A DNA stretch of 64,000 bases, from assembly GCF_025857195.1 (NCBI RefSeq), contig NZ_CP109787.1, forward strand, positions 3,137,501-3,201,500, written 5' to 3'. Positions 306-46,954 of this stretch are shown piece after piece. The notes beneath the pieces are model-generated. The model was not told where the DNA came from. It did not search any database and saw only the letters and a program-made list of their open reading frames with translations. The translations under genes and the position numbers were made by a program. Positions within the stretch are counted from its first letter, which is position 1. The number at the start of each line of letters is the position of its first letter. Source of the DNA: Leisingera thetidis (lineage in GTDB: Bacteria; Pseudomonadota; Alphaproteobacteria; Rhodobacterales; Rhodobacteraceae).

Positions 306-689
306 TCAGCCCTGCTCCTCCAGCACCTTGCGGGCGGCGCGGAAACATTCCAGTGCCTGGGGCACACCGCAGTAGATGCCGATCACATGGATGATCGCCC
401 GGATCTCCTCTTTGGTAACGCCGTTATTGATGGCACCGCGGCAGTGCAGCTCCCATTCGTGCATCTTGCCCAGCGCTCCGATCATCGACAGATTCATCAT
501 CGAGCGGGTCTTGGCGTCGATCACATCATCGCCCCAGCCAAACCCCCAGCACCAGGCGGTCATCGCCTCCTGGAAGGGCCGGGTGAAGTCATCGGCCGCG
601 GCCAGGTTCGTTTCGACATATTCGGCGCCCAGGGTGGATTTGCGCTGTTCCAGGCCCTTCAGGAACAGGTCTTCGTCAAATGTGCTCAT
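306..689 (-). CDS. Carboxymuconolactone decarboxylase-family protein
   Basis: A 127-aa protein of the carboxymuconolactone decarboxylase (CMD/AhpD) fold, small all-helical proteins that form oligomers. The segment around residues 70-100 (EWELHCRGAINNGVTKEEI) is the typical CMD core. The single Cys there is not part of a CxxC, so a peroxidase role of the AhpD kind is unlikely and a decarboxylase or lyase-like role fits better. It is the last gene of the leftward operon, with one base between its start and the upstream aldehyde dehydrogenase stop. The substrate is unknown; context suggests a late product of betaine breakdown. Confidence 0.8.
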   Translation of the reverse strand: MSTFDEDLFLKGLEQRKSTLGAEYVETNLAAADDFTRPFQEAMTAWCWGFGWGDDVIDAKTRSMMNLSMIGALGKMHEWELHCRGAINNGVTKEEIRAIIHVIGIYCGVPQALECFRAARKVLEEQG

Positions 690-690: not shown

Positions 691-2145
691 TCAGCCTCTC
701 AGTTTCATGGCGATGTTCTTGGTCTGGACGTAGTTCCACAGCGCCCCGCGGCCCTTTTCGCGGCCGTAGCCGGATTTGCCGTAACCGCCAAAGGGAGTCT
801 CGACGCCGCCGGCATACCATTCGTTCACGAAGACCTGGCCTGCGCGGATCTGGCGGGCGCAGCGGGTTGCGCGGTCCAGGTCTCGGGTAAAGACACCGCC
901 GACCAGCCCGTATTCGGTGCTGTTGGCGATCTTGATGGCTTCGGCATCAGACCGGAATTTGAGGACCGAGAGAACCGGCCCGAAGATCTCTTCGCTGGCG
1001 ATGCTGTCGTTCGGGGTGATGCCGGAGACCACGGTCGGGGCCAGGAGGGCGCCCGCATTGCCGACGGGCGTCCCGCCCGCAGCGATGGTTGCGCCCCCGG
1101 ACTGCGCCTGCCGGACGATGCCAAGCGCACGGTCGCGCTGGGGCATGGACACCATCGCCCCCATATTGGCGCCGAACTCGGCCCGGTCGATACCGGCGCC
1201 TACGGTGAGGCTTTCGGCCACGTTCACCGCGCGCTCGACCAGTTCGTCGTGGCGGCTTTCGTGAACGATCACCCGGCTCATGGCGCTGCAGACCTGGCCT
1301 GCGTTGAAATAGATACCCCAACGGATGTCATTTTCAAACGCGTCGAGGTCGGCATCCTCATGCACGATGGCGGCGGATTTTCCGCCGAGTTCCAGTACGC
1401 AAGGCACCACGTTCTGCGCCGCCGCGGTGGCGATGCGGACGCCGGTGGGGACGGAGCCGGTGAAGACGATCTGGTTGACCTGCGGATGGCCTGCAAGGGC
1501 GGCGCCCGCCTCATGCCCGTAGCCGCAGAGGATGTTGACTGCCCCCGGCGGGAAACCCGCGGCCTCGGCCGCGCGGGCGAGCCAGGCATTGGTGAGCGGC
1601 GTCAGTTCCGGTGTCTTGATCACGCAGGCATTGCCGGTGGCCAGCGCCGCCGACAGCGAGCGCGCAGTCATCTCCACCGGGTAATTCCAGGGAATGATCT
1701 GGGCGGAGACCCCCTTCGGCTCGTTCTCGGTCCAGTCGAAATAGCCGCCGCCGAGCGGGATCGAGCGGCCCTCCACCGTGCTGGCCTGATTGCCGTAGTA
1801 CTCGAAATAGAGCGCCGCGCCCTCGATCTCGATCCGGGATTCCCAGAGCGGCTTGCCCTGCTCCAGGGTCAGGACCGGCGCGATCTCGTCAATGTGGCTA
1901 AGCAGGTAGCGGCCCATCGCCTGCACCATGCGGCCGCGTGCAATCGGGCGCAGCGCCGTCAGCTCGCCGGACAGGTGCAGGCGGCGGGCGGCCTGCACGG
2001 CGCGGTCCACGTCGGCGGCATCACCCAGCGCCTGGCGGGCCAAAAGCTCCCCATTGGCCGGGTTGGTGACATCGATCCACCCTGCCCCGCCAGGCACCCA
2101 TTCGCCGTCGATATAGTTCAGCCATTCGGCATCAAGCTGTGTCAT
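691..2145 (-). CDS. NAD(P)-dependent aldehyde dehydrogenase (betaine cluster)
   Basis: A 484-aa full-length aldehyde dehydrogenase. It shows the glutamate motif LELGGKSA, the catalytic cysteine in FNAGQVCSAM, and the usual PWNYPVEMTA segment of the cofactor-binding domain. Its gene lies 6 bp after the Rieske oxygenase stop and 1 bp before the CMD gene, so it is co-transcribed with them. A likely role is oxidising an aldehyde released by oxidative N-dealkylation or from the side chain of the demethylated product. Family members resemble betaine-aldehyde and succinate-semialdehyde dehydrogenases; the exact substrate cannot be read from the sequence. Confidence 0.88.
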   Translation of the reverse strand: MTQLDAEWLNYIDGEWVPGGAGWIDVTNPANGELLARQALGDAADVDRAVQAARRLHLSGELTALRPIARGRMVQAMGRYLLSHIDEIAPVLTLEQGKPLWESRIEIEGAALYFEYYGNQASTVEGRSIPLGGGYFDWTENEPKGVSAQIIPWNYPVEMTARSLSAALATGNACVIKTPELTPLTNAWLARAAEAAGFPPGAVNILCGYGHEAGAALAGHPQVNQIVFTGSVPTGVRIATAAAQNVVPCVLELGGKSAAIVHEDADLDAFENDIRWGIYFNAGQVCSAMSRVIVHESRHDELVERAVNVAESLTVGAGIDRAEFGANMGAMVSMPQRDRALGIVRQAQSGGATIAAGGTPVGNAGALLAPTVVSGITPNDSIASEEIFGPVLSVLKFRSDAEAIKIANSTEYGLVGGVFTRDLDRATRCARQIRAGQVFVNEWYAGGVETPFGGYGKSGYGREKGRGALWNYVQTKNIAMKLRG

Positions 2146-2151: not shown

Positions 2152-3255
2152 TCAAATCCCTGCTGCTGCCAGATCGCGGTCTGCCGCGTCACGCATCCAT
2201 TTCTGAAGATGCAGGATGGAATGTTCCGAGTTCACACCGCAAGCGGGATCGACCACCAGCGGCCCGGGCACATAGCCGCGGCTTTTGAGGCCGCGCTGCA
2301 CTGATTCCACCAGGTGAATATCTTCTTCCACCGTGGTGGCGCGGTCCTGCACCGCCAGTCGGCGCACGGTTTCATTGTCTTCGCCGCGGACCGAGTACCA
2401 GCCGCGCCAGACCACGACGTGATCGGCATCCACCGCGCGCCAGTGATAGGTATTGAGGATGTTGCCCGGATAGACCTGGAAGGAGAACATCGGCCACAGA
2501 AACCAGCTGGAGTATTTGCCGTTGTTCTCGAACCCTGAGTTGATGTCATAGGTCATCTGGTCCAGCGAATTGCATTCTGTGGTGTGGCGCAGGCAGAAGC
2601 CCTGGGGCTGAATGTCATAGGTTTCCGGCTTGATCACCCCGGTGGAGAAGGTCGGGTGGTTGAGGCTGCAATGATAGCACTCGGAGTAGTTCTCGACCGA
2701 GACCTTCCAGTTGCAGTTTTCCGGGATTTCCACCCATTCCAGCGGCTTCAGCTCACCCCAATTGGGGACGAAGCTTTCCAGCTCGCCGCGCACGCCCGGA
2801 AACCAGTCGTCCATCGGCTGGGCTTCGGGATCGAGATTCACGAAGATGAAGCCCAGGAAGACTTCGGTGCGGACTTCGGTCAGGCAGACCTTGGATTTGT
2901 CAAAGCCCTGCACCGATTTCAGGTTCGGCCCGGCGCGCAGCTGGCCGGTCAGCTCATACGTCCAGGCGTGATAGGGGCAGACCACAACCCGCGTGGTGCC
3001 CTCGCCCGAGACCAGCTGGTGAGCGCGGTGCTGGCAGACATTGTAGAAGGTGCGGATCTCGCCATCCCTCCCCTTGATGCAAAACAGGCTTTCCCCGGCC
3101 ATCTCGAATGTAAAATAGTCACCGGGGTTTTCCAGCTGGCTAGCGTGACCGGCGTATTGCCAGGTGCGGGCCAGAAGGCCGTTGCGCTCGGCCTCGAAGA
3201 CAACCGGATCGGTATAGTACCGCCCCGCGAGGGAATGTGTCAGAGGGGCGTTCAT
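2152..3255 (-). CDS. Rieske non-heme iron oxygenase, alpha subunit, quaternary-ammonium type
   Basis: A 367-aa oxygenase component. The Rieske [2Fe-2S] ligands are C74-x-H76 and C93-x2-H96. The mononuclear iron site is H195, H200 and D312. The residue three before the first His is E192 (ENYSECYHC), the glutamate that replaces the usual bridging aspartate in carnitine, proline-betaine (Stc2) and glycine-betaine oxygenases. This places it with N-demethylating or N-cleaving oxygenases of quaternary ammonium compounds rather than arene dioxygenases. Its start overlaps the rpiR stop by 4 nt. No dedicated reductase gene is adjacent, so electrons must come from elsewhere. The substrate is inferred to be a betaine. 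Confidence 0.85.
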   Translation of the reverse strand: MNAPLTHSLAGRYYTDPVVFEAERNGLLARTWQYAGHASQLENPGDYFTFEMAGESLFCIKGRDGEIRTFYNVCQHRAHQLVSGEGTTRVVVCPYHAWTYELTGQLRAGPNLKSVQGFDKSKVCLTEVRTEVFLGFIFVNLDPEAQPMDDWFPGVRGELESFVPNWGELKPLEWVEIPENCNWKVSVENYSECYHCSLNHPTFSTGVIKPETYDIQPQGFCLRHTTECNSLDQMTYDINSGFENNGKYSSWFLWPMFSFQVYPGNILNTYHWRAVDADHVVVWRGWYSVRGEDNETVRRLAVQDRATTVEEDIHLVESVQRGLKSRGYVPGPLVVDPACGVNSEHSILHLQKWMRDAADRDLAAAGI

Positions 3256-4139
3256 TCAGGTTCCTCCGCATAAAGACCCAGCTGATGCCTGCGTTGGTGG
3301 AAATGCGCGACCCGTTCGACGATCTCGTCGCTGGAAACCGCGATCACGAAGGAGAGCAGCGTTTCCAGCAGGGCGATGGTCGAGACGGAAGACGGGAAGA
3401 ATTGCGGCGTGTCCGCCGCGACGACAAAACCGTGATCCGCATTCAGGACCACGGGGCTGGCAGGGCTGTCGGAAATGCCGACAATGGTGACCCCCTGTTC
3501 GCGCGCGATGCGGATCGCCTCGATCACCTCGGTGCGGTAGGGCTTGCAGGTCATTGCGATCAGCACGTCCTGGCTGTCGGCCCAGGCCAGATCGTCAACG
3601 GCCGTGGAACCGGGCTGCGGGATGGCGTGGAACTGCTTCATGCCGGTGGAGGCCAGATAGGTGAAGTTGCGGGCATTGGCGTTGTTGACGCCCACACCCA
3701 GGGTAAAGACCTGACGGGACTGCCAGATCACCCTTGCCGCCGCTTCCAGGCAGCCCGCATCGATGCCTGCAAAGGTCTCTTCGATATTGCGGATCGCCGC
3801 CCCCGCCATGTCGGCATAAAGCCCGCCCAACCCGCCGGACTTGCCGATATCCAGCAGCCAGCGTGCCCGGTCCGGAAAGGACACCCCGCCCCTGCGAATC
3901 GCCTCTCGGAAGGGGGCGCGAAAATCCTCGTAGCCTTCAAAACCCACCTGCCGCGCCATGCGGACAAAGGTGTTGGGTTTCACATTTGCTGCCTCGGCAA
4001 TCTCGCGGACAGTGGAAACCCCGACATCCGCGGGGTTTTCCAGCACATAGCGAGCCGCCTTCTGCGCCTCGGGCGTCAGGGCCTCCCACTCTTCGGTGAG
4101 GCGCTCCAAAACGGAATTTGATACATTTGTGTCATTCAT
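3252..4139 (-). CDS. MurR/RpiR-family transcriptional regulator (betaine cluster)
   Basis: A 295-aa regulator with an N-terminal RpiR helix-turn-helix (residues 1-75, containing STVREIAEAANVKPNTFVRMARQVGF) and a C-terminal SIS sugar-isomerase-like effector domain. I placed the start at the ATG at 4139 (MNDTNVSN) because the frame upstream of it lacks family similarity and overlaps the divergent promoter. It heads the leftward operon, overlapping the Rieske gene by 4 nt, and is divergent from the FAD dehydrogenase gene. An inverted repeat at 4123-4160 spans its own start codon, so it probably controls itself and both arms. Confidence 0.88.
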   Translation of the reverse strand: MNDTNVSNSVLERLTEEWEALTPEAQKAARYVLENPADVGVSTVREIAEAANVKPNTFVRMARQVGFEGYEDFRAPFREAIRRGGVSFPDRARWLLDIGKSGGLGGLYADMAGAAIRNIEETFAGIDAGCLEAAARVIWQSRQVFTLGVGVNNANARNFTYLASTGMKQFHAIPQPGSTAVDDLAWADSQDVLIAMTCKPYRTEVIEAIRIAREQGVTIVGISDSPASPVVLNADHGFVVAADTPQFFPSSVSTIALLETLLSFVIAVSSDEIVERVAHFHQRRHQLGLYAEEPE

Positions 4140-4160: not shown

Positions 4161-4209
4161 GGAATTAGCCTGTCGAGCAGAAAAGCGCATGGCAATCAGG
4201 AACGGCGAA

Positions 4210-6669
4210 ATGGCTGAGAAGGAATTCCCCACGCAGGCCCGTGTGGTCATTGTTGGCGGCGGCGTTATGGGGGCGGGCCTGGCCTATCACCTGGCGCATG
4301 AGGGCTGGGGCCCGGAGGTGGTTCTGCTGGAAAAGGCCGAGTTGACTTCAGGCTCGACCTGGCACGCGGCGGGGCAGATCACCCATTCCACCAGCTCGTT
4401 CGGGTTGGGCAAATGCGTCGACTACAACATCGGGCTCTACTCCGGGAAACTGGAGGAAGAGACCGGCCAGGCGGTGACCTGGCACGGCTGCGGCTCGTTC
4501 CGCCTGGCCTATACCGAGGATGAGATGGACTGGCTGCGCCACACGCTGTCGGTCGGGCGCAGCCTGGGTTTCAACATTGAACTTGTCGGGCCCGAAAAGG
4601 TCGCCGAGCTGCATCCCTTCTATAATCTCGAAGGAGTGCTGGGTGCGCTCCACACCCCCGATGACGGCCATGTTGACCCGACCAACGTGACCATGGCGCT
4701 GGCCGCCGGCGCCCGCCAGCTGGGCGTGCGCATCTTCCGCCGCTGCCGCGCCACCAACATCACGCAAGGACCGGGTGGCGAATGGATCGTCGAAACGGAA
4801 AAGGGCACCATTGCTTGCGAGCATGTGGTCAACGCCGGCGGCACCTATGCCCGCCAGATGGGCGAATGGTCGGGCCTGCAGCTGCCGATGACCTCGATGA
4901 CCCACCATTACTTCGTGACCGAGCCAGTGCCGGAGTTCGAGGGCTTGGACATGGAACTGCCGGTGATCCGCGATGACAAAAAGGTCTCCGGCTATATCCG
5001 GATGGAGCAGAAGCGCGGCCTGATCGGGATCTACGAGAAGGAAGGTTCCAACTCGGTCTGGCATGACCACTGCCCCTGGGACTACGAGAACTGGCTGTTC
5101 GATGCCGATTACGACCGGGTGATGCCGTGGCTGCAGGAAAGCCTGAACCGGATGCCGATCTTTGCCGACCTCGGAATTCAGCGCGAAGTGCACGGCGCGA
5201 TCTCGCATCCGCCGGACGGCAACCCGCTGATCGGCCCGGCAGCGGGCGTGAAAAACTACTGGTGCTGCTGCGGCACCCAGATCGGCATCGGCTGGGGCCC
5301 CGGCCTCACCCGCGAGCTGGCGCGGTGGATGGTGCATGGCGCCGCCGGCATTTCCATGCGCGAGTATGACCCGCGCCGCTTCGGCTCCTATGCCACCAAG
5401 GACTGGCAGGTGACCAAGGCGCATGAGGACTACAAGCTGCGCCACGAGATCCCCTTCCCGCATTTCAACCGCCTGGCGGGCCGCCCGGTCAAACCCTCGC
5501 CGCTTTATGACCGGCTGAAGGAAAAAGGCGCGGTCTATGAGGAAGTCTACGGCCACGAGCGGCCGCGCTGGTTTGCCAGGAACGGTGTGGAGCAGCGCGA
5601 CCACTACTCCTTCAAGCGCAATGTGGTGCACGGCATTGTCGGGGCAGAGGTGAAGGCCGTGCGCGAGGGCGCGGGCATCATGGACATCTCCGCCTTCACC
5701 AAGGTCGAGGTTTCCGGCCCCGGCGCCGCGGCGCTCCTGGACCGGCTGACCGCCAACCGCCTGCCGCGGAAGGCGGGCGGCATTGCCCTCACCCACATGC
5801 TGAACCGCCACGGCCGGATCGAGCTGGAAACCACCGTGGTGAAACTGGCAGAGGACAGCTACTACCTGGTCTGCGCCGCCTTCTTCGAACAGCGGCTGCT
5901 GGACCACCTGAACCAGAACCGCGCGGGCGACGAGGTGGCGATCAAAACCCTCTCCACCGATTGGGCCGCCCTTGCGCTCAATGGTCCGAAGTCCCGCACG
6001 GTGCTGGCCTCCTGCACCAATGCGGACCTGTCGAACGCCGGTTTCAAATGGCTCACCGCGCAGCAGATCGAGGTTGCGGGGCACAGGCTCTGGGCCTTCC
6101 GCATGTCCTATGCGGGCGAGCTCGGATGGGAGCTGCACATCCCGCGCGGCAACGCCCTGGCAGTGTATGACGCGCTCTGGGCCGCTGGCGCGGCGCATGG
6201 CATTGCCGACTATGGCTCTTTCGCGATGAACGCCATGCGGATGGAAAAGGGTTTCAAGGGGGCTGGCGAACTCACCAACGAAGTGACCCTGGCCGAGGCG
6301 GATGTGCTGCGCTTTGCCCGTACAGACAAGGACTACCTCGGCAATGACAAGACGCTGAACGCGGACGCCCTGCGCTGGGTCTGCGCCTATCTGGAGATCG
6401 AACCTGACGGCGTCACCGACGGCCATGGCGGCGAAGCGGTCCTGCTGGAGGGCAAGGTCGTGGGCTCCACCGCCTCGGTCGCCTATGGCCATACCGCCGG
6501 CAAGATCCTGGCCTTTGCCTATGTCAAACCGCACGCCAATGTGCCGGGCACGCCGATCGAGGTGGTGATTGCAGGCGCCCCGCGCCGGGGCCGCATCCTG
6601 GGCGCCCCCGCCTACGATCCCGAAGGCCTGCTCCCGCGCACCGACGCCGCACTCGCCCCGGCGGAATAA
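4210..6669 (+). CDS. FAD-dependent dehydrogenase fused to GcvT (dimethylglycine/sarcosine dehydrogenase-like)
   Basis: An 819-aa two-part enzyme. Residues 10-400 form a DAO-type FAD domain with VVIVGGGVMGAG at 12-23 and STWHAAG at 49-55. The His in that motif (H52) is the residue that carries covalent FAD in dimethylglycine and sarcosine dehydrogenases. The second half (about 430-819) is GcvT/aminomethyltransferase-like, which passes the removed one-carbon unit to tetrahydrofolate. I chose ATG 4210 because AGGAA at 4198-4202 is well spaced; upstream starts at 4189 and 4096 lack this. It should oxidatively demethylate the tertiary amine left by the Rieske enzyme. Confidence 0.87.
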   Translation: MAEKEFPTQARVVIVGGGVMGAGLAYHLAHEGWGPEVVLLEKAELTSGSTWHAAGQITHSTSSFGLGKCVDYNIGLYSGKLEEETGQAVTWHGCGSFRLAYTEDEMDWLRHTLSVGRSLGFNIELVGPEKVAELHPFYNLEGVLGALHTPDDGHVDPTNVTMALAAGARQLGVRIFRRCRATNITQGPGGEWIVETEKGTIACEHVVNAGGTYARQMGEWSGLQLPMTSMTHHYFVTEPVPEFEGLDMELPVIRDDKKVSGYIRMEQKRGLIGIYEKEGSNSVWHDHCPWDYENWLFDADYDRVMPWLQESLNRMPIFADLGIQREVHGAISHPPDGNPLIGPAAGVKNYWCCCGTQIGIGWGPGLTRELARWMVHGAAGISMREYDPRRFGSYATKDWQVTKAHEDYKLRHEIPFPHFNRLAGRPVKPSPLYDRLKEKGAVYEEVYGHERPRWFARNGVEQRDHYSFKRNVVHGIVGAEVKAVREGAGIMDISAFTKVEVSGPGAAALLDRLTANRLPRKAGGIALTHMLNRHGRIELETTVVKLAEDSYYLVCAAFFEQRLLDHLNQNRAGDEVAIKTLSTDWAALALNGPKSRTVLASCTNADLSNAGFKWLTAQQIEVAGHRLWAFRMSYAGELGWELHIPRGNALAVYDALWAAGAAHGIADYGSFAMNAMRMEKGFKGAGELTNEVTLAEADVLRFARTDKDYLGNDKTLNADALRWVCAYLEIEPDGVTDGHGGEAVLLEGKVVGSTASVAYGHTAGKILAFAYVKPHANVPGTPIEVVIAGAPRRGRILGAPAYDPEGLLPRTDAALAPAE

Positions 6670-6680: not shown

Positions 6681-6750
6681 CTCCCCTCTTCTTCTTTGTG
6701 AAAATACTCCGGGGGGAGCCGAAGGCGGGGGGCAGCGCCCCCTCCCCATA
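6681..6750 (+). repeat. Short dispersed intergenic repeat, copy B
   Basis: It has a pyrimidine run then AAAATACTCC and a GGGGGGAGCC tail, ending in a GC-rich stem (ggggcagcgccccc). It fills most of the 102-bp gap between the FAD dehydrogenase and the MDR gene, so it lies inside a presumed transcript rather than only at its end. Confidence 0.65.
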
Positions 6751-6771: not shown

Positions 6772-7854
6772 ATGACCCTGCCCGACACCATGAAGGCGAT
6801 GGTTCTGACCGGCCACGGCGATCTGGACAAATACGAATGGCACGAGGACTGGCCGGTGCCGCAGCCCGGACCGATGGAAGTGCTGATCAAGGTCGGCGCC
6901 TGCGGGCTGAACAACACCGATGTGAACACCCGCTCCGGCTGGTATTCCAAGACGGTCAAGGGCGCCACCGCCGGCGGCGCCTTTGGCGAGGCCGGCAAGG
7001 AAGACCCGGCCTGGGGCGGCCGTCCCCTCGCCTTCCCGCGCATTCAGGGCGCGGACGCTGTTGGCCAAGTGGTGGCCTTGGGTGACGGCGCCGACCCGGC
7101 CCTCATCGGCAAGCGCGTCATGGTTGGCGGCTGGGTGCGCGACTGGGACGACCCGGAGAACAAGGACAAGGCCGGTTATTTCGGCTCCGAATGCGATGGC
7201 GGCTTTGCCGAATACACCAAGGCGGATGCGCGCGGCGTGGCCGTCGTCGACAGCCCCCTCAGCGATGCGGAGCTGGCAACCTTCTCCTGCTCTTACGTCA
7301 CCGCCGAAGGCATGCTGAGCCGCGCGGGCGTGGGCGCCGATGACACGGTGCTGATCCCCGGCGCCTCCGGCGGGGTTGGCGGCGCGCTTATTCAGCTCGC
7401 CAAGCGCCGCGGCGCGCGGGTGATCGCAATGGCCTCCGAGGCCAAACACGCCGAGGTGGCGGAGCTTGGCCCCGACCTGATCCTGCCGCGCGCGCCGGAG
7501 AACCTGCGGACAGCCCTTGGCGATGAGAAAGTCACCGTGGTCGCCGATGTGGTCGGCGGCGTGCAGTGGCCCAGACTGATCGACGTGCTGGAACGCGGCG
7601 GGCGGTACACCTGCTCGGGTGCAATTGCCGGGCCGATGGTGGAGCTGGACCTGCGCACCTTCTATCTGCGCGACCTGACCTTCACCGGCTCCACCGTGAC
7701 ACTGCACCGCAGCTTCACCGATGTCGTTTCCTCCATCGAGAAGGGAGAGATCAGACCGGCGCTGGCAGCGGTCTACCCTCTGTCGGACCTGAAGGAGGCC
7801 CAGGCCGCCTTCATCGCCAAGAAGCACACCGGAAACATTGTGGTGATCCCATGA
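6772..7854 (+). CDS. Medium-chain dehydrogenase/reductase lacking zinc ligands (quinone-oxidoreductase-like)
   Basis: A 360-aa MDR protein with an N-terminal GroES-like domain and a Rossmann domain (GASGGVGGALIQLAKRRGA) that binds NAD(P)H. The catalytic-zinc His of alcohol dehydrogenases (GHE motif) is replaced: the segment reads FPRIQGADAVG. The four-Cys structural zinc loop is also missing. It is therefore closer to quinone oxidoreductases or enoyl reductases than to a zinc alcohol dehydrogenase. Its stop overlaps the next gene's ATG by 4 nt, so translation is coupled to the DddQ-like cupin. It could reduce an alkenoyl product made by the neighbouring lyases; this is inference. Confidence 0.82.
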   Translation: MTLPDTMKAMVLTGHGDLDKYEWHEDWPVPQPGPMEVLIKVGACGLNNTDVNTRSGWYSKTVKGATAGGAFGEAGKEDPAWGGRPLAFPRIQGADAVGQVVALGDGADPALIGKRVMVGGWVRDWDDPENKDKAGYFGSECDGGFAEYTKADARGVAVVDSPLSDAELATFSCSYVTAEGMLSRAGVGADDTVLIPGASGGVGGALIQLAKRRGARVIAMASEAKHAEVAELGPDLILPRAPENLRTALGDEKVTVVADVVGGVQWPRLIDVLERGGRYTCSGAIAGPMVELDLRTFYLRDLTFTGSTVTLHRSFTDVVSSIEKGEIRPALAAVYPLSDLKEAQAAFIAKKHTGNIVVIP

Positions 7855-8459
7855 GCAAAGACCTGTTCGATCAGGCACTGGAAGCAGCCAAAGCCTTTCA
7901 TGCCGCCCTGCCCGCGGTGGCGGAGTTCCAGCCCTGGCCCGATGACATCACCTGGGCCGGCCGCGAAGGCCATCAGGTGCCCGGTGCGGCTTTGGTGCAA
8001 TCCGACCCCGGTTTTGCCGCCGAGGGCCTTCCGGCCGCGGCCGAAGTGCGGGCCCTGCAGCAGGCCATCATGGCGCTGGCGCCGCACGCCGAATGGCGCC
8101 TCACGTATACCGAGGAGGAAGTCGGCAAGGATTTCCTGCAGCGCTTCGGCTGGTTTGAGCTGGTGGGGCCGACCGGCCATTTCCACTCCCTGCAGAGCCG
8201 GATGACCATCGGCTACTGGGGCCCGCGGCTGGACTACCCCTGGCACCAGCACGGACCGGAAGAGCTTTACACCATCCTGTCCGGCAGCGCCGATTTCATG
8301 GCCAAGGGCGAAGAGGTGCGCCGCCTTGTGCCGGGCGACACCAAGATGCACGGGTCCAATCAGCCCCATGCCATGATCACCAACGAGCATCCGATCCTCT
8401 GCTTCGTCTTCTGGCGCGGCGAGGGGCTGGCGGATGATCCGGCAATGTCCCCGGGCTGA
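7851..8459 (+). CDS. DddQ-type cupin (DMSP-lyase family), paralogue 1
   Basis: A 202-aa cupin of the DMSP-lyase family. The metal and catalytic pattern of DddQ (His, +4 Glu, +6 Tyr, about +38 His, plus a Tyr at -5) is present as H134, E138, Y140, H173 and Y129. DddQ cleaves the sulfonium betaine DMSP to acrylate and dimethylsulfide using a single metal ion and a tyrosine base. Here the gene is coupled to an MDR reductase and followed by enolase-superfamily genes within a betaine-demethylation cluster. The true substrate may be DMSP or a related betaine. Confidence is high for the family and moderate for DMSP lyase activity. Confidence 0.75.
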   Translation: MSKDLFDQALEAAKAFHAALPAVAEFQPWPDDITWAGREGHQVPGAALVQSDPGFAAEGLPAAAEVRALQQAIMALAPHAEWRLTYTEEEVGKDFLQRFGWFELVGPTGHFHSLQSRMTIGYWGPRLDYPWHQHGPEELYTILSGSADFMAKGEEVRRLVPGDTKMHGSNQPHAMITNEHPILCFVFWRGEGLADDPAMSPG

Positions 8460-8477
8460 GCAACAGGAGCGCCGAAC

Positions 8478-8714
8478 ATGAATCTCACCGGCATCCGCCC
8501 GTACCAGCCTCCCTCTGCCAAACCTGGGCGGTCCCCTTGGCCGCGGAGCTGGCAACGCGATCGCAACCGGTGCAGCTTCGGTTGCGCTGCTGCCACTGGC
8601 GGCGCCCGGGTGAAGACCGGCATGCACGTTGCGCCGGTCCCGCCCGGCCTGGGTGCCATCCCCGATTTCGAAAACCTTGGCGCCCCGATGGCCGGCTTCG
8701 GAGCTTCGCAATGA
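8478..8714 (+). pseudogene. Collapsed enolase-superfamily gene (N- and C-terminal ends joined)
   Basis: A 78-codon frame with a well placed ribosome site (AGGAG at 8465-8469, 8 nt before ATG 8478). Residues 1-16 (MNLTGIRPYQPPSAKP) look like the start of a muconate-lactonizing/mandelate-racemase protein. Residues 42-75 (GARVKTGMHVAPV, then PPGLGAIPDFENLGAP) match the last 30 residues of the two intact paralogues, which end in PGLGV-x-P-x5-LG-x-P. The roughly 290-residue catalytic core is missing. It reads as an internal deletion of a third enolase-family copy that kept its start, stop and ribosome site. It may still be translated but cannot be an active enzyme. Confidence 0.65.
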
Positions 8715-8720
8715 CCCGCC

Positions 8721-8773
8721 GCGCCTTCCTCTTGCTGAAAATACCCCCGCCGGAGGCTCCCGCCCTCTCCATA
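8721..8773 (+). repeat. Short dispersed intergenic repeat, copy C
   Basis: It reads ttcctcttgctg, then AAAATACCCCCGCCGGAGGC, then a pyrimidine tail. It lies between the enolase remnant and the intact enolase-family gene, ending just before that gene's ribosome site (AAGGAC). Confidence 0.62.
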
Positions 8774-8784
8774 AGGACAAACGC

Positions 8785-9894
8785 ATGAGAATGACCCGCA
8801 TTGCCGTTTACCAGCTCGATATGCCATTGACCGAGCCCTATTCCTTGTCAGGCGGCCGTCTGAAGTTCGAAAAACTCGACAGCACCTTTGTGCGCATCGA
8901 TACCGACGAGGGTGTCTCAGGCTGGGGCGAGGGCTGCCCCTGGGGGCACACCTATCTGCCCGCGCACGGGCCGGGGATCCGGGCCGGGATCGAAACACTC
9001 GCACCAGCCCTGATCGGGCTGGACCCGCGCAGCCTGGATCATGTGAACCACGTGATGGATTTGCAGCTGCCGGGCCACCCTTATGTGAAATCGCCGATCG
9101 ACATGGCCTGCTGGGATATTCTGGGCAAGGCCTCCGGCCTGCCCGTGTGGCAGCTTCTGGGCGGAGCGGAGGCGGCGCCGGTGCTGGTGAACTCCTCAAT
9201 CTCCACCGGCAGCCCGGAGGAGATGCTGGCGCTGATCGCCCGTGCTGCGCAGAAGGGCTACATCGTGCATTCGGCCAAGGTGGGCGGCACCGATATTGGC
9301 CTCGACATCGCCCGGATCGAGGCGATTTCGGAAGGGCTGCCCAAGGGGCACAGGGTGACCTTCGACGTGAACCGCGCCTGGCCGCCGGGTGTGGCGGTTG
9401 AGGTGCTGAACTCGGTCAAGGCGCGCGACTGGGTGGAACAGCCCTGCGAGACGCTGGATCAATGCGCCCATGTGGCGGCGCGCGTGTCCAATCCGATCAT
9501 GCTGGACGAATGCCTGCATACCTTCGGCGACCATCTGCAAGCCTGGAGACGCCGTGCCTGCGAGGGTGTGAAGGTGAAGCCCAACCGCGCAGGCGGGCTG
9601 ACCAAGGCCCGGCAGATCCGCGACTTTGGCGTCTCCGTCGGCTGGCAGATGCATATCGAAGATGTGGGCGGCTCGGCGCTGGCCGATACCGCGGCGATCC
9701 ATCTGGCCGCCTCGACTCCCGAAGCAAACCGGCTGGCGAGCTGGCTGTGCCACTATCATCTGGACGCGGATCCGGTCCCCGGCCAGGGCGCGCGGAATGA
9801 CCGCGGCGTAGCGGTACCGCCGTCGCTGCCCGGCCTGGGGGTGACCCCCGAAGAGGGCGCGCTGGGGGAGCCGGTTGCGGTTTACGGAGGCTGA
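8785..9894 (+). CDS. Enolase-superfamily racemase/epimerase (MLE/MR type), paralogue 1
   Basis: A 369-aa protein with the capping domain (residues 1-125) and a TIM barrel. The catalytic pair is K165 (strand 2, HSAKVGG) and K265 (strand 6, VKVKPNRAGG). Metal ligands are D194, E218 and D241. This two-lysine layout, at almost the same positions, is that of proline-betaine racemases and hydroxyproline-betaine 2-epimerases (HpbD), which move the alpha proton of a betaine. ATG 8785 follows AAGGAC; a second ATG is at 8791. The gene ends 4 bp before the second cupin starts. The likely job is to interconvert betaine stereoisomers before demethylation. Confidence 0.83.
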   Translation: MRMTRIAVYQLDMPLTEPYSLSGGRLKFEKLDSTFVRIDTDEGVSGWGEGCPWGHTYLPAHGPGIRAGIETLAPALIGLDPRSLDHVNHVMDLQLPGHPYVKSPIDMACWDILGKASGLPVWQLLGGAEAAPVLVNSSISTGSPEEMLALIARAAQKGYIVHSAKVGGTDIGLDIARIEAISEGLPKGHRVTFDVNRAWPPGVAVEVLNSVKARDWVEQPCETLDQCAHVAARVSNPIMLDECLHTFGDHLQAWRRRACEGVKVKPNRAGGLTKARQIRDFGVSVGWQMHIEDVGGSALADTAAIHLAASTPEANRLASWLCHYHLDADPVPGQGARNDRGVAVPPSLPGLGVTPEEGALGEPVAVYGG

Positions 9895-9898
9895 GGAG

Positions 9899-10492
9899 AT
9901 GGCGGAACACCTGTTGCAGGAATTGTGGCGGTTAGCCGCCCGCACCGAAGGGCTGGCATGGTTTGCCGGGCGGATGCAGGGGTTGCCTGCGCTAGAGGTT
10001 GAGCCACACCGGCTGCCGGTGTGCGGAAGGATCGCGGAACTGGCCGCCAGCGGCACGCAGGTGAGCGCCGGCACCGCATCCGCGGTGGCTGCGCTGGCCG
10101 CCGCCCTGCCCGCCCTGCGCTGGCAGCAGACCTACACCGAGGCCGACGGGTTTTCCCGCAGCTGGCTGGACAATTACGGCTGGGTCAACCTGATCTCGCC
10201 CGAGGGGCTGTTCGCCAGCGATGAAATGCGGCTGTCGATCGGCTACTGGGGCGCCGGGCAGCACTATGACGAGCATTCGCACGCGCCGGAGGAGACCTAT
10301 CTGATCCTCGCAGGCCAGGCCCGGTTCCATTCCGAGGGGCGCGCAGCACGCGATGCCGGACCCGGCGAGACCATCCACCACGCGCCGCACCAGAAACACG
10401 CCATTGATATGGTGCCAGGGCCGCTGCTGGCGGCGGCGTTCTGGCGCGGCGAGGACCTGTTGAAGAAATCCGATCTGGGAAAACGCGCATGA
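9899..10492 (+). CDS. DddQ-type cupin (DMSP-lyase family), paralogue 2
   Basis: A 197-aa cupin diverged from the copy at 7851 but keeping the same residues: H128, E132, Y134, H167 and Y123, in the same spacing (+4, +6, +39, -5). Both paralogues share the GYWG strand before the metal site and an FWRGE-x-L motif near the C terminus. I chose ATG 9899 because GGAGG at 9886-9890 is 8 nt upstream. It is followed, with a 4-nt overlap, by the second enolase-family gene. Two kept active sites argue against simple redundancy; the paralogues may take different betaines or the two epimers of one. Confidence 0.74.
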   Translation: MAEHLLQELWRLAARTEGLAWFAGRMQGLPALEVEPHRLPVCGRIAELAASGTQVSAGTASAVAALAAALPALRWQQTYTEADGFSRSWLDNYGWVNLISPEGLFASDEMRLSIGYWGAGQHYDEHSHAPEETYLILAGQARFHSEGRAARDAGPGETIHHAPHQKHAIDMVPGPLLAAAFWRGEDLLKKSDLGKRA

Positions 10493-11592
10493 AGATCATC
10501 CGGATTTCGCTGTGGCATGTGCCGCTGACCAGCCACACCGCCTATCACATGGCCGAGGGCAAGACCTGCGGCACGGTCGAAACCGTCGTGCTGGCGCTGG
10601 ACACCGATACCGGGCTCACCGGCTGGGGCGAGGTCTGCCCGATCCCGCATTACCTGCCCGCCTATGCCCGTGGCGTGGTGCCGGCTGTCGAGGAAATGGC
10701 GCCGGTGCTGCTGGGTGCTGACCCGGTGGGGCCGGAGGCGGTGATGGCCGGGCTCGACCGCTGGCTGCAAGGGCACGCTTACGCCAAGTCCGCCATCGAC
10801 ATCGCCCTGTGGGACCTGACTGCCCAGGCAGCGGACCTGCCGCTTCATGCGCTGCTGGGCGGGCAGCGGCAGGCGGACATGCCGCTTTATCACTCGATCA
10901 CCTGTGTCGCACCGGAGGAGATGGCGCGCATCGCCTGCGAGGCGCAGGAGACCGGCATCGCCCAGTTCCAGGTGAAACTGGGCGCGGACCGCGACTGGCA
11001 GGCCGATGCGGCGCGGCTGCGGATGGTGCGCGAGGCGGTCGGGGACGGACCGCTGGTCTATGGCGACTGGAACTGCGGCGCCTCCTCGCTGGATGCCTCG
11101 CGCGCGGGCCGGGCGGTGGCGGATCTGGACATCATGCTGGAACAGCCCTGCGCCACCATCGAGGATTGCGCGCGGGTGCGCGCGGCCTGCGGGCTGCCGA
11201 TGAAACTGGATGAAAACGCGCATGATACGGCATCTCTGCTGGCAGGCCATGCGGCGGGGGTAATGGATGCGGTGGCCATCAAACTGTCGAAATTCGGCGG
11301 CCTGTCGGCGGCGCGCCGGGCGCGGGACCTGTGCCTGCATCTGGGTGCGAAGATGTGCATCGAGGATACCTGGGGCTCCGACATCACCACCGCCGCCCTG
11401 CTGCATCTGGGTGCGGCCACCGACCCGCTGCGTCTGATGAACGTCTGCGACCTGTCCGCCTATGTCAGCCCGCGGCTGGCGCCGGACGGGCCGGAGCGGC
11501 GCAACGGCCGTATCGCACCGCCCCAAGGTCCCGGCCTCGGCGTGCGGCCGGACCGCGAGAGCCTTGGCGCGCCCGCAGCCGTGATCAGCTGA
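10489..11592 (+). CDS. Enolase-superfamily racemase/epimerase (MLE/MR type), paralogue 2
   Basis: A 367-aa protein with catalytic K163 (FQVKLGA) and K265 (AIKLSKFGG) and metal ligands D193, E218 and D241. These coordinates fit those of the hydroxyproline-betaine epimerase HpbD even better than paralogue 1, and the segment IKL-x3-GG is the HpbD-like strand 6. Its start overlaps the cupin stop by 4 nt. It is the last gene of the rightward operon before a separate promoter at about 11.6 kb. Racemisation or epimerisation of a cyclic or linear betaine is the best guess; the substrate is not determined by sequence. Confidence 0.83.
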   Translation: MKIIRISLWHVPLTSHTAYHMAEGKTCGTVETVVLALDTDTGLTGWGEVCPIPHYLPAYARGVVPAVEEMAPVLLGADPVGPEAVMAGLDRWLQGHAYAKSAIDIALWDLTAQAADLPLHALLGGQRQADMPLYHSITCVAPEEMARIACEAQETGIAQFQVKLGADRDWQADAARLRMVREAVGDGPLVYGDWNCGASSLDASRAGRAVADLDIMLEQPCATIEDCARVRAACGLPMKLDENAHDTASLLAGHAAGVMDAVAIKLSKFGGLSAARRARDLCLHLGAKMCIEDTWGSDITTAALLHLGAATDPLRLMNVCDLSAYVSPRLAPDGPERRNGRIAPPQGPGLGVRPDRESLGAPAAVIS

Positions 11593-11656: not shown

Positions 11657-12931
11657 ATGGAAAAGATCCTCACCCAGGCAGAATGGACAGACCGCGCCCG
11701 CGCAGTGCTGCCCGCCGGCGGTTTCGGCAATTTCGACCCCGGCATTGTCATCCGCGAGGGCAAGGGCTCGCGCGTGTGGGACGAAGACGGCAAGGAGTAT
11801 ATCGACTACCTGATTGGTTCCGGCCCGATGATGCTGGGGCATGGCCATCCCGAGGTGATGGAAGCCGTGCTGGAGCAGCTGCCCAAGGGCATGACCTTCT
11901 TTGCCAATAACGCCCGCGGGATCGAGCTGGCCGAGGAAATCTGCCGCGCCGTTCCGTGCAGCGAGCAGCTGCGTTACGTCTCTACCGGCGGCGAGGCGGA
12001 TATGTATGCGATCCGGCTGGCCCGCGCCTTTACCGGGCGCACGAAGATCGTGAAGTTCGAGGGCGGCTATCACGGCATGTCGGCAGAAGCGCAGATGAGC
12101 CTGGCACCGGTCAAGCGGGTGAATTTTCCGCAGGCGGTGCCGGACAGCGCGGGCATCCCGCCGTCGGTGGCGGCCGAGGTGCTGGTGGCGCCGTTCAATG
12201 ATTTTGAATACATCAAGCAGCTGATGGCAGAGCACGGGCACGAGATCGCCGCGATCATAGCCGAGCCGCTGCAGCGGATCGTGCCGCCGCTGCCGGGCTT
12301 CCTGGAACTGCTGCGCGCGGAAACCCGGACACATGGCAGCCTCCTGATCTTCGACGAGGTGGTGACGGGCTTCCGCTTCGCCTATGGCGGCGCGCAGGAA
12401 CTGTACGGCGTGACCCCTGACCTGGCGACGCTGGGCAAGGTGATCGGCGGCGGCTTCCCGCTGGCGGCCATCGCGGGCCATGCGGATATCATGCGGCATT
12501 TCGACAAGACCCAGGCGGGCGCCGATGGCTGGCTGATGCAGTTGGGGACGCTGTCGGGCAATCCGGTGGCGGCTGTTGCGGGCCTCAAGACGATGGAGGT
12601 GCTGCGCCGCGAGGGCGCCTATGAACAGCTGAACGGCACCGGCAAGCGGCTGATGCAGGCGACCAGCGCCGCGTTGGAAGACGCCGGGGTGCCGTTCCAG
12701 ATCGTTGGCGAGCCTGCACTGTTCGAGGTGGTATTTACCGGCGCCAAGGTGCGGGACTACCGCGGCACCCAATCGGGCAATGCGGAGCGTACCAGGCGTT
12801 ACAACGCAGTGCTCCGCGAGGAAGGCATCTTCAAGTCGCCGGGCAAGACCTATCCGAGCCTGGCGCTGGCCGAAGAAGACCTGCAGCAGACCGAGGCGGC
12901 AATCCGCAAAGCCGCGATGGCCCTGGACTGA
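11657..12931 (+). CDS. Class III PLP-dependent aminotransferase / glutamate-1-semialdehyde aminomutase-like
   Basis: A 424-aa fold-type I enzyme. The PLP lysine lies in ATLGKVIGGGFP and the cofactor aspartate in LLIFDEVVTGFR. Overall layout is close to glutamate-1-semialdehyde 2,1-aminomutases and omega-aminotransferases. The ATG at 11657 follows AGGAAC; an in-frame upstream start at 11627 falls inside the presumed -10/+1 region, so it was rejected. It has its own promoter after the enolase gene but keeps the same direction. Being in a catabolic cluster, transamination of an amino acid product is more likely than haem synthesis. Confidence 0.82.
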   Translation: MEKILTQAEWTDRARAVLPAGGFGNFDPGIVIREGKGSRVWDEDGKEYIDYLIGSGPMMLGHGHPEVMEAVLEQLPKGMTFFANNARGIELAEEICRAVPCSEQLRYVSTGGEADMYAIRLARAFTGRTKIVKFEGGYHGMSAEAQMSLAPVKRVNFPQAVPDSAGIPPSVAAEVLVAPFNDFEYIKQLMAEHGHEIAAIIAEPLQRIVPPLPGFLELLRAETRTHGSLLIFDEVVTGFRFAYGGAQELYGVTPDLATLGKVIGGGFPLAAIAGHADIMRHFDKTQAGADGWLMQLGTLSGNPVAAVAGLKTMEVLRREGAYEQLNGTGKRLMQATSAALEDAGVPFQIVGEPALFEVVFTGAKVRDYRGTQSGNAERTRRYNAVLREEGIFKSPGKTYPSLALAEEDLQQTEAAIRKAAMALD

Positions 12932-13242: not shown

Positions 13243-13593
13243 TTAGCCCGTGGCGGCAGTAACGATAAGTTCGACGAGGAAATCCTCGCGCGCCAGCTTC
13301 GCCTCGCCGCAGGCCCGCGCAGGCGCGTGGCCCTCGGGCACCCAGGCGTCCCAGACCGCGTTCATTTCGGCAAAATCCTTCATGTCAGCGAGCCAGATCA
13401 CCGTCTGCAGAATGCGGGTCTTGTCGCTGCCGGCCTCTGCCAGCAGGGCATCGATCTTTTCCAGGCAGTCCTGGGTCTGCTGCGCCACGCTGGCACCGGC
13501 GGTGCCGACCTGGCCCGCCAGGTAGACAGTACCGCCATGGCTGACGATCTGGCTCATGCGCTGGGTGGTGTGGTTACGGGTAATTTCGGACAT
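13243..13593 (-). CDS. RidA-family (YjgF/YER057c) protein
   Basis: A 116-aa RidA-like protein, a trimeric family that hydrolyses reactive enamine/imine intermediates from PLP enzymes and flavin amine oxidases. The segment [11 protein letters not shown] and the C-terminal LARED-x-LVEL strand fit the fold. The usual arginine region reads [12 protein letters not shown]. Start at 13593 (MSEITRNH) is supported by GAGGAA just upstream. Its place beside a PLP aminotransferase and amine-oxidising genes suits detoxification of 2-aminoacrylate-like or imine by-products. Confidence 0.82.
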
Positions 13594-13680
13594 CGGTTCC
13601 TCGCAGATGGAATAATCGGGAAAAGCTGCGGCACACTTGGCGCTGCCGCGGCATTGCGGCAAGCGCGCCGCAATGCCGGG

Positions 13681-14034
13681 TTATTGGGAAAGCTTCCAGT
13701 CCCGGCCAGCGGGACAGAACTTGCGGCGGACCTGTTTGGGCTCCTGGCTGTCCTTGAGAAAGGCCTGGTGCTGCAACAGGAGGCAACCGCCGTCCTTGCC
13801 GCTGACCCGCACCTCGCCCCGTGCGCCGCTGTCCGGGTTGGACCATTGGGCCCGTTTGCCGGGTTCCCCCTGCGCCTCGGCCAACAAGGACTGTTCCGCC
13901 TGGCGCATGATGTTGGTGTCCTGCGGCGTCAGCCCCGATTCGGCCAGTATACGGCTAAGCGGGCTGGCCGCTGCAGGGGACAGCGTCAGCACCGATGCGG
14001 CGGCGGCGGCAACGAGAATTCCTGAAAATCGCAT
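13681..14034 (-). CDS. Small secreted protein with surface-antigen-like C-terminal domain
   Basis: A 117-aa protein with a clear signal peptide (residues 1-23, MRF then an Ala/Val/Leu core ending AAASP). The mature part contains WSNPDSGARGEVRVSG and ends KFCPAGRDWKL, with two cysteines that could pair. This layout resembles the RT0821/Lpp0805 or 17-kDa surface-antigen-type domain found in small alphaproteobacterial envelope proteins, but the match is by eye. It is not part of an obvious operon (87 bp to RidA, 114 bp to rpiR). Function unknown. Confidence 0.65.
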   Translation of the reverse strand: MRFSGILVAAAAASVLTLSPAAASPLSRILAESGLTPQDTNIMRQAEQSLLAEAQGEPGKRAQWSNPDSGARGEVRVSGKDGGCLLLQHQAFLKDSQEPKQVRRKFCPAGRDWKLSQ

Positions 14035-14148
14035 TACGAGTACTCCTGCCTGTAAGGTAAAAGCCTGGCCCCCGCGCTGCGGCAGGCCGCGTTCGGTCCA
14101 GTAAGGCGCAACCCGAAGGCATTGTCCATGCGGCGGCAGCCCCGCAGT

Positions 14149-15021
14149 TCAGGAAAACTTACGGAACAGCCGGGTCATGTCGAACAGTTCATCCAGCCGG
14201 TCGTAACGCTCCTTGGTCTTGTCCCAGCTTTCCTCCTGGGTGGCGGCGATCATTGCTTCCAACAGCATCATCGTGGCGATATTGGAATCCCAGGCCGACG
14301 GAATTTCGACCCAGCAATTGAAGGTGTGTCCGGCAACCGGGGCTATCGGGCTGGCCCATTGATCGGTGACCAGCACAATCTTCACCCCGCGTTCGGAGGC
14401 AAGCTCTGCCAGCCGCTGCAGGTTGGTCTCGTACCGGCGCACGTCGAACATCAGAAGCGTGTCGCCCTCGACCATGTCCAGAACGTAATGCGGCCAGGTG
14501 GCCGAGGAAGAAGTCATATGGGTGACCCGCTGCCGGATCGCCTGGAAATGGGTAAAGGCGTAGTCCGCAAGGGCCCGGGTGATGCGGCCGCCGACGACAT
14601 AGAGCCGGCCTTCGGTGTTGGCGAGCTGGCGGACGGCAGCATCGAACTGGGCTGAATCGATGTTGGAAAACGTCTGCTGCAGGTTGTCGGTCACCGCCTG
14701 TGAAAATCTGTTCAGCAGGTGGCCCTCGGGCGCCTCGGAGGCCCAGTTGTCGCGCCGTTTGGTGGGGCCGGAGACTTTGGCCTCCAATTCCTTCAGCAGT
14801 GCCTGATGGAATTGCGGGTATCCCTTGAAGCCCAGTTTCTGCACCATCCGCGCCACCGTCGGCGTCGACACTTCGGCATTGCCGGCCACGATGGTGATCG
14901 AGGCCAAGCCTGCTGCAGGGTAGTTCTCCAGCAGGAGGTTAGCGAACTTGCGCTCGGCTTGGGTGAGCGAGGAGTAACTCTCTCGGATCAACTCGCGAAC
15001 GGTGGCTGGCGGTTTCGTCAA
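14149..15021 (-). CDS. MurR/RpiR-family transcriptional regulator (TRAP operon)
   Basis: A 290-aa regulator with an RpiR helix-turn-helix (residues 1-80, including SITIVAGNAEVSTPTVARMVQKLGF) and a SIS domain (about 125-265; LYVVGGRITRALADY and VLVTDQWASPIAP). It is divergent from the amidohydrolase/TRAP operon, and three copies of TGAAAA-x-AT lie in the gap between them. It is distinct from the RpiR at 3252. SIS domains normally sense phosphosugars, but RpiR paralogues in such clusters may sense other acidic metabolites. The likely role is local control of the rightward operon. Confidence 0.87.
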   Translation of the reverse strand: MTKPPATVRELIRESYSSLTQAERKFANLLLENYPAAGLASITIVAGNAEVSTPTVARMVQKLGFKGYPQFHQALLKELEAKVSGPTKRRDNWASEAPEGHLLNRFSQAVTDNLQQTFSNIDSAQFDAAVRQLANTEGRLYVVGGRITRALADYAFTHFQAIRQRVTHMTSSSATWPHYVLDMVEGDTLLMFDVRRYETNLQRLAELASERGVKIVLVTDQWASPIAPVAGHTFNCWVEIPSAWDSNIATMMLLEAMIAATQEESWDKTKERYDRLDELFDMTRLFRKFS

Positions 15022-15068
15022 CGGGGCATTCCTGCTTCTTGAACAAACACTTCCTTACCCGGCTCCGG

Positions 15069-15154
15069 CCTGAAAAGATAGTTTCAGGAATCTCTGTTCG
15101 AAACCGGTCATGAAAAGATATTGACACAAATATCCCTTCATGAAAACATTTTTC
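15069..15154. promoter_or_regulatory. Triple TGAAAA operator array in the rpiR / TRAP-operon gap
   Basis: TGAAAAGATA occurs at 15071-15080 and again at 15111-15120, and TGAAAACATT at 15141-15150; the offsets of 40 and 30 bp keep them on one DNA face. The first sits in a perfect palindrome, CCTGAAA-N6-TTTCAGG (15069-15088). The third forms GAAAA-N3-TTTTC (15142-15154). A TTGACA (15121-15126) lies between copies two and three, so binding would block a rightward promoter. Confidence 0.55.
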
Positions 15155-15175
15155 CAATTCGCAGGGAGGCGGCAA

Positions 15176-18052: not shown

Positions 18053-18103
18053 CCAAGGAGAGTCCCGGCAAGGGGCCGGATGTTTCAACAAGGAGAGAGA
18101 ATA

Positions 18104-19138: not shown

Positions 19139-19160
19139 GGGGCCGGCCGGGAAACGGTGT

Positions 19161-19231: not shown

Positions 19232-19254
19232 CCTCAATACGCAAAGGGCCGCTC

Positions 19255-20607: not shown

Positions 20608-20624
20608 TCCGCCTTCCGGCGGAT
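20607..20624 (+). terminator. Hairpin at the ligase stop codon
   Basis: ATCCGCC (20607-20613) pairs with GGCGGAT (20618-20624) around TTCC, starting on the last base of the stop codon of the ligase gene. It leads directly into the reverse short repeat. No U-run follows, so it may be an attenuator or stability element rather than a full terminator. Confidence 0.45.
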
Positions 20625-20675: not shown

Positions 20676-20695
20676 GCCCTTTGTGAATGGAGTAA

Positions 20696-46950: not shown

Positions 46951-46954
46951 CGCC

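Follow-up and report, generated by a model that had tools for sequence, protein, structure and literature searches.

DddQ-type cupins of Leisingera thetidis lie in a mosaic gene cluster with a possible role in the degradation of betaine-type carboxylates

DddQ serves as a marker gene for dimethylsulfide (DMS) release and is counted as a dimethylsulfoniopropionate (DMSP) lyase in ocean surveys despite its poor affinity for DMSP, the Km being 22 mM in the available text of one report, which also describes dddQ as induced by DMSP (PMC5395565). A second report, as excerpted, indicates that dimethylsulfoxonium propionate (DMSOP) is handled by DddQ more efficiently than DMSP (PMC10686828). In Ruegeria pomeroyi and Roseovarius nubinhibens, a gene for a medium-chain reductase/dehydrogenase (MDR), MDR028, is linked to dddQ and to dddQ1/dddQ2, respectively, and the R. 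nubinhibens MDR028 failed to correct acrylate sensitivity, according to the accessible sections of that work (PMC3338564). No description of a dddQ context made up of Rieske oxygenase, dimethylglycine-dehydrogenase-like (DMGDH) and enolase genes was found in the open-licence literature, which we searched by titles and abstract openings. Here we analyse a stretch of 64,000 nucleotides from Leisingera thetidis (contig NZ_CP109787.1, positions 3,137,501 to 3,201,500; hereafter the window), in which two DddQ-type cupins are interleaved with enolase-superfamily genes and a decayed enolase end at 7,851-11,592. From gene content and conserved residues, we give about an even chance to the explanation that this dddQ locus is a mosaic cluster for a methylated-nitrogen (betaine-type) carboxylate, the core of which would demethylate and transaminate, while an enolase (EN1) and a cupin would act on the betaine and MDR would carry out a reduction.

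The dddQ locus in the window and in related genomes

On the plus strand of the window, DMGDH (4189..6669), MDR (6772..7854), cupin1 (7851..8459), a decayed enolase EN0 (8478..8714), the enolase EN1 (8785..9894), cupin2 (9899..10492), the enolase EN2 (10489..11592) and the class-III aminotransferase AT3 (11657..12931) follow one another as one operon. A divergent arm on the minus strand holds an RpiR-type regulator, a Rieske oxygenase, an aldehyde dehydrogenase (ALDH) and a carboxymuconolactone-decarboxylase-like protein (CMD). MDR ends at 7854 and overlaps the start of cupin1 at 7851 by 4 nt, EN1 and cupin2 are separated by a 4-nt gap (9894 to 9899), and cupin2 and EN2 overlap by 4 nt, ATGA, at 10489-10492. 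These coordinates agree with the order of cupin, enolase remnant, enolase, cupin and enolase, with its 4-nt overlaps and gap, that an initial annotation of the window had described.

When named genomes were scanned with an alignment of cupin1-type proteins, 75 cupin-seeded loci were obtained, some of them on short contigs. Enolases of the four types EN0-EN3, called at ≥55% identity to a reference, are present in 54 of the 75 (56 if two distant enolases are counted), which speaks against a chance pairing, and loci with both cupin and enolase occur in Leisingera, Ruegeria, Roseovarius, Tropicibacter, Shimia, Mameliella, Nioella and others. Orthologs of EN2 were found in 57 of 394 genomes of the family at 66-100% identity, the next match being 44% identical. 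Besides the window's own, 56 EN2 loci were retrieved, and 51 of them show DMGDH and EN2 with the intervening genes in view. None of MDR, cupin, EN0, EN1 and EN3 is present in 14 of the 51; ten carry MDR and EN1, ten MDR, cupin, EN0 and EN1, five MDR, cupin and EN1, and twelve rarer mixtures. The outer genes were counted as Rieske 44, RpiR 45, AT3 47, CMD 22 and ALDH 8, which are lower bounds because contig ends or the limits of the retrieved stretch can cut them off. Judged by gene content, the core of this cluster of marine Rhodobacteraceae is Rieske, RpiR, DMGDH, EN2 and AT3, and the optional set is MDR, cupin, EN0 and EN1.

The genes of each set tend to occur together. Presence and absence of Rieske follow those of EN2 at the locus (44/0/2/8 of 54, p 4e-8), and MDR goes with EN1 (27/5/3/16 of 51, p 3e-6). 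Across the 51 EN2 loci the cupin goes with EN0 (p 3e-4), EN1 (p 0.007) and MDR (p 0.02). EN1 is absent at E≤1e-70 from 13 of the 14 genomes with a core-only locus. When DddQ was called over the 394 genomes at E≤1e-18 to cupin1, 29 genomes had both DddQ and EN2, 28 EN2 alone, 27 DddQ alone and 310 neither (odds ratio 12, p 2e-13), and the two genes lie ≤10 kb apart in 22 of the 29. About half of the sampled DddQ-bearing genomes (29/56) are thus tied to an N-demethylating cluster.

Eleven genomes with a cupin locus devoid of EN2 were searched for the core. Nine carry EN2 and a Rieske gene at another site, four of these Rieske matches containing one stop codon inside the aligned stretch, and DMGDH is present in all nine relocated-core regions (L210-L218). 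In the other two genomes, those of loci L037 and L101, EN2 was also not found genome-wide. AT3 was seen beside EN2 at L210, L211 and L218; for the remaining relocated cores it is at the cupin locus instead (L034, L065, L076 and L084) or at neither (L055 and L078). The distribution of AT3 and the core looks, as far as gene positions tell, as if one pathway had been split across two loci. The idea that a cupin locus functions without demethylation genes, considered for loci that lack Rieske, DMGDH and EN2, among them L065, L076 and L084, was dropped because their genomes proved to carry EN2 and Rieske at other sites. At L037, from a Bugula-associated genome, CMD, cupin1 and AT3 alone remain of the cluster genes searched, and an enolase-like start after the cupin breaks off; no EN2 turned up in this genome at E≤1e-70.

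Several observations weigh against a betaine role. EN2 is missing from 27 of the 56 DddQ-bearing genomes, and when 18 loci from 17 of these 27 were inspected with cluster genes called at ≥55% identity, nine of the 17 genomes showed no core or optional gene near the cupin. A DddQ cupin is found elsewhere in five of the 14 core-only genomes (G004, G086, G141, G176 and G236), and in six of the nine relocated cores AT3 was not recognised next to EN2. MDR and EN1 occur without a cupin in 12 of the 51 EN2 loci, and the cupin is therefore dispensable for MDR and EN1. The exact tests ignore shared descent. In addition, the available text of PMC5395565 reports that DMS production fell by 97% in a dddQ mutant of R. 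pomeroyi and by 20% in a mutant of R. nubinhibens. As to the other inspected DddQ-only genomes, two (G109 and G200) have an EN1-type cluster, three (G033, G064 and G335) have MDR next to the cupin and lack a cluster enolase, and three have a cluster-type ALDH (G270, 72%) or CMD (G137 and G326, 87-88%) alone. The cluster of G109 (L222) is full and has an EN1-type enolase, 67% identical to the window EN1, in the usual place of EN2.

These data bear on a rival explanation, in which the cupins are true DMSP/DMSOP lyases that sit in the cluster through co-regulation with other osmolyte catabolism, not through a common pathway, and the enolases act on nitrogen betaines only. The genomes with DddQ and without EN2, and those without a cluster gene near the cupin, fit such a role, as do the mutant phenotype and the induction by DMSP (PMC5395565, as excerpted) and the cleavage of DMSOP (PMC10686828, likewise). 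The gene association of the cupins with the cluster speaks against it, together with the high Km in the available part of PMC5395565 and the location of dmdA and a gene resembling acuI (430.9 bits, cut-off 440), which lie together at C1:1,621,317-1,623,515, about 1.5 Mb from the window (C1:3,137,501). Moreover, the neighbouring MDR (PF00107/PF08240) is not AcuI-like, scoring 36.7 bits against the AcuI acrylyl-CoA reductase model NF051456 with a cut-off of 440, and its R. nubinhibens counterpart is the gene that failed on acrylate sensitivity in the accessible sections of PMC3338564. We consider this explanation somewhat unlikely. Given the mutant, induction and substrate data from the literature, DMSP cleavage by DddQ is real, yet the genes around it suggest a different or a further role.

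Cupins and enolases of the cluster

Both cupins pass the Pfam DMSP_lyase family PF16867 (cupin1 74.8 and cupin2 82.1 bits, gathering cut-off 27). Counted from the second metal His, each has Tyr at -5, Glu at +4, Tyr at +6 and His at +39, so that the full DddQ active site ascribed to them earlier is present; Y129, H132, H134, E138, Y140 and H173 (cupin1 numbering) are invariant in 25 of 25 alignment rows, which include both window cupins. Cupin1 resembles DddQ by sequence, the nearest structure being RnDddQII (4B29, 209.5 bits), and its place in the tree agrees. Cupin2 is 30-33% identical to the solved DddQs; its AlphaFold model has a predicted local distance difference test (pLDDT) value of 95.6, and its six best PDB matches are all DddQ structures, with template modelling (TM) scores of 0.85-0.91 by query length against the six DddQ chains and ≤0.58 for the other 44 rows shown. 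In a cupin tree of 101 rows, cupin2 falls within a clade of 11, with a Shimodaira-Hasegawa-like approximate likelihood ratio test (SH-aLRT) value of 98. The genome encodes a third PF16867 protein (G000:C2:318736-319149, 73.9 bits), which has a very long branch in this tree.

From the alternating gene order, the initial annotation had proposed that a [cupin-enolase] unit was duplicated and that both copies act in sequence on one betaine. The location of eight of the 11 cupin2-clade members between EN1 and EN2 would fit such an event. At the Leisingera ANG59 locus L210, cupin2 still precedes EN2 though EN1, MDR and cupin1 are missing there; the cupins of L103, L106, L149 and L174 are directly upstream of EN2 yet outside the cupin2 clade. 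The trees contradict the proposal, as the phylogenies of cupins and enolases, compared as the annotation had advised, disagree, the outcome that it had named as refuting, and EN1 and EN2 are not sisters. EN2 occurs without cupins in many loci, including the 14 of 51 devoid of all optional genes. Cupin and enolase numbers are also mismatched. Among the 54 enolase-bearing cupin loci, 39 have one cupin, 12 have two and three have three, and 35 combine one cupin with at least two enolases. Cupin2 thus tends to travel with EN2, and not through duplication of a unit. The pairing of cupin and enolase therefore stands in part, for cupin2 and EN2, and a unit duplication is highly improbable.

In an enolase tree of 66 rows, EN0-EN3 form clades of their own, with SH-aLRT values of 100 for EN0, 99 for EN1, 93 for EN2 and 86 for EN3 (99 with 2PS2, which we take to be from Aspergillus). 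EN1 joins EN3/2PS2 (SH-aLRT 98) and EN2 lies outside, while EN0 stands beside 4MGG with weak support (SH-aLRT 64). The structure 3EEZ, presumably from R. pomeroyi, is within the EN1 clade; in the structure matches 2PCE/3FV9, 2RDX, 2QDD/3FVD and 3EEZ are named merely 'mandelate racemase/muconate lactonizing enzyme'. The window EN1 itself matches 2qdd with 677 bits. In 50 EN0, 76 EN1, 95 EN2 and 9 EN3 sequences, K165, D194, E218, D241 and K265, numbered as in the window EN1, never vary; this K-D-E-D-K catalytic set is the one given for 4H2H in the accessible text of PMC11961199. Residue 320 distinguishes the clades: every EN1 sequence (76 of 76) has Trp there, every EN0 Thr, every EN2 Cys and every EN3 Leu. 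Residue 321 is Asp throughout EN0, EN2 and EN3, and most EN1 sequences have Ala or Leu there. Trp320 is a putative equivalent of the Trp320 with which HpbD, a hydroxyproline-betaine epimerase, binds the quaternary ammonium, a lead that comes from an alignment of EN0-EN3 sequences. If the equivalence holds, the residue pattern suggests that Trp320 of EN1 is a candidate betaine-binding residue, and that EN1 may act on a quaternary betaine and EN0, EN2 and EN3 on free amines. The best 120 of 2,738 protein matches are all ≥75% identical to EN2, and no HpbD is among the matches listed. The source of one of these matches, P0179, labels it '4-hydroxyproline betaine 2-epimerase', which we regard as automatic naming.

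Of the solved enolases of known function, 4MGG, which we take to be the Labrenzia enzyme, scores best against EN0, EN1 and EN2. The Labrenzia enolase carries out both 2-epimerisation and dehydration of cis-3-hydroxy-L-proline, according to the available text of PMC5144071, and either reaction is therefore possible for the cluster enolases. An assignment as cis-3-hydroxyproline dehydratase or as cycloisomerase was rejected since the scores are under the curated cut-offs: with NF043002 (cut-off 500), EN1 and EN2 score 311.1 and 327 bits, and they reach 114.2 and 100.7 bits against the muconate/chloromuconate cycloisomerase model TIGR02534 (cut-off 335).

Residue 321 bears on a further alternative, in which the cupins come in late in the pathway and dehydrate or isomerise a carboxylate that has already been demethylated or deaminated, with neither amine nor sulfide released. 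EN0, EN2 and EN3 share Asp321 with 4MGG and probably act on free amines, and the cupin associates with EN0, both of which would suit a late step. The cupins associate also with EN1, the bearer of Trp320, and DddQ accepts sulfonium substrates in the available texts of PMC5395565 and PMC10686828; these points tell against it, and we regard a late step of this kind as unlikely.

The initial annotation was right in seeing an enolase remnant downstream of cupin1. In blastn comparisons with loci L035, L036, L040 and L038, the 3' end of the remnant (recognisable at about 8598-8692) aligns with the corresponding end of an intact EN0 at the same place, between cupin1 and EN1, in three Leisingera genomes (Leisingera aquimarina, ANG-M1 and ANG-Vp) at 70-72% nucleotide identity and E 1e-20 to 1e-7, and also that of one Rhodobacteraceae metagenome-assembled genome at 69%. 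The 5' end (MNLTGIRPYQ) resembles an enolase start, for which BLAST gave no match. By this comparison, the stretch 8478-8714 is what an internal deletion has left of EN0, with a genuine 3' end. In L035, EN0 is followed by a small Cupin_2 gene, which lies between EN0 and EN1 in at least four loci; it encodes a 94-residue PF07883 protein (L053:11673-11954) and occurs in 36 of 75 enolase loci with a DddQ cupin versus none of 35 without one. This gene was searched for in the window and not found.

Other genes of the locus

DMGDH appears to be an FAD- and folate-binding (GcvT-like) N-demethylase (PF01266 and PF01571), and its nearest solved structure is the mitochondrial DMGDH (PDB 5l46, 518 bits). 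In the divergent arm, the RpiR-type regulator (3252..4139, minus strand), which was assigned to its family by reading and not by a family search, keeps its position in 45 of the 51 EN2 loci. Next to it, the Rieske oxygenase gene (2152..3255, minus strand) encodes a protein that matches carnitine monooxygenase (PDB 6y8j) with 216 bits, the next distinct protein being 3vca with 120 bits. The ALDH (691..2145, minus strand; PF00171) is betaine-aldehyde-dehydrogenase-like, scoring 410.9 bits against TIGR01804, under the cut-off of 668.6. CMD (306..689, minus strand; PF02627, 69.5 bits) is the outermost gene of this arm and lies close to the Rieske gene in many related loci. At the other end, AT3 (PF00202, 202 bits; PDB 5i92, 305 bits) is glutamate-1-semialdehyde-aminomutase-like and stays below the cut-off of the corresponding model TIGR00713 (362.2 bits, cut-off 527).

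The next cluster of the window, at 13243-23293, contains RidA-like, second RpiR-like, N-formylglutamate-amidohydrolase-like, glutamine-synthetase-like, tripartite ATP-independent periplasmic (TRAP) transporter, aldehyde dehydrogenase and iron alcohol dehydrogenase genes, some named by reading. Parts of it trail the cupin cluster in L034, L035 and L037, and the compared loci of Ruegeria and Roseovarius did not show it. A UPF0261 protein gene adjoins aldehyde dehydrogenase and TctA-type transporter genes at 35060-39386, and a second class-III aminotransferase, a second glutamine-synthetase-like protein, a P450 and a class-I glutamine amidotransferase are encoded at 41935-46947. A short dispersed repeat (77-81% over 31-42 bp) occurs at 8716-8757, just upstream of EN1, and at 36340-36380, 46951-46990 and 6688-6718.

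A possible pathway and comparison with known systems

If the cluster serves a methylated-nitrogen carboxylate, its core would strip the N-methyl groups, with the Rieske oxygenase acting before DMGDH. On the demethylated amino acid, EN2 would then carry out an epimerisation or elimination at the alpha carbon, and AT3 would take off the nitrogen. The optional set of MDR, cupins, EN0 and EN1 might serve related betaines. EN1 would act on the quaternary form as an alpha-epimerase, a beta-eliminating enzyme or both, the DddQ cupin would abstract the alpha proton and expel the beta-substituent as with DMSP, and MDR would reduce the double bond left by the elimination. This reduction is suggested because MDR goes with EN1 and because MDR-cupin neighbours exist without a cluster enolase. 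On this view, the cupin and the enolases would abstract alpha protons in parallel, with different stereochemical or leaving-group preferences, and would not be duplicated partners. The earlier proposal that both enzyme types act on one betaine keeps its support in outline, in so far as both belong to a single betaine-type catabolic cluster, with Rieske and DMGDH-like genes, and EN1 has the candidate Trp; the paired duplication from which it had been derived falls away. The headgroup of diacylglyceryl hydroxymethyltrimethyl-β-alanine (DGTA), carnitine and hydroxyproline betaine were considered as substrates; the present data do not separate them, and none is claimed.

A wider form of this proposal, which we put forward tentatively and with somewhat less than even confidence, is that DddQ belongs largely to betaine degradation. 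Its native reaction would be a beta-elimination from a quaternary-ammonium carboxylate, possibly with amine release, as the initial annotation had suggested for the cupins, MDR would be the product reductase, and DMSP cleavage would be secondary. If so, counts of dddQ overstate the capacity for DMS production, and the structures 2QDD, 2PCE, 2RDX and 3EEZ gain a function. The question of the native substrate of DddQ is reduced to a few assays with proteins that are already crystallised.

Among known systems, carnitine monooxygenase CntA and glycine betaine monooxygenase GbcA are the nearest relatives of the cluster Rieske protein. Unlike GbcA, this protein scores far under the cut-off of the GbcA model NF058607 (152.7 versus 670 bits), and no reductase partner was recognised beside its gene in the window. 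The window cupins share the Pfam family and the active-site residues of the DddQ DMSP lyases (4B29, 4LA2, 4LA3, 5JSP and 5CU1), and cupin2 shares their fold by prediction, whereas its sequence places it in a clade apart from these solved enzymes.

The closest described loci are the dddQ loci of R. nubinhibens ISM (L046) and Ruegeria lacuscaerulensis ITI-1157 (L075), in which Rieske and RpiR genes likewise diverge from DMGDH, MDR, cupin(s), enolases and an aminotransferase. The R. nubinhibens cluster has two cupins and four enolases. Its second cupin is PDB 4B29 (187 of 187 residues compared), its EN1 is 2QDD (366 of 367 residues), and its EN3 and EN0 are 2PCE and 2RDX, bar the first residue. 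The occurrence of adjacent dddQ genes in some roseobacters, which the initial annotation had mentioned, is confirmed by the accessible sections of PMC3338564. In the window, unlike these two loci, cupin2 separates EN1 from EN2, and both EN0 and the small cupin have been lost. The window MDR stands at the MDR028 position, as in R. nubinhibens and, by the literature as excerpted, in R. pomeroyi DSS-3.

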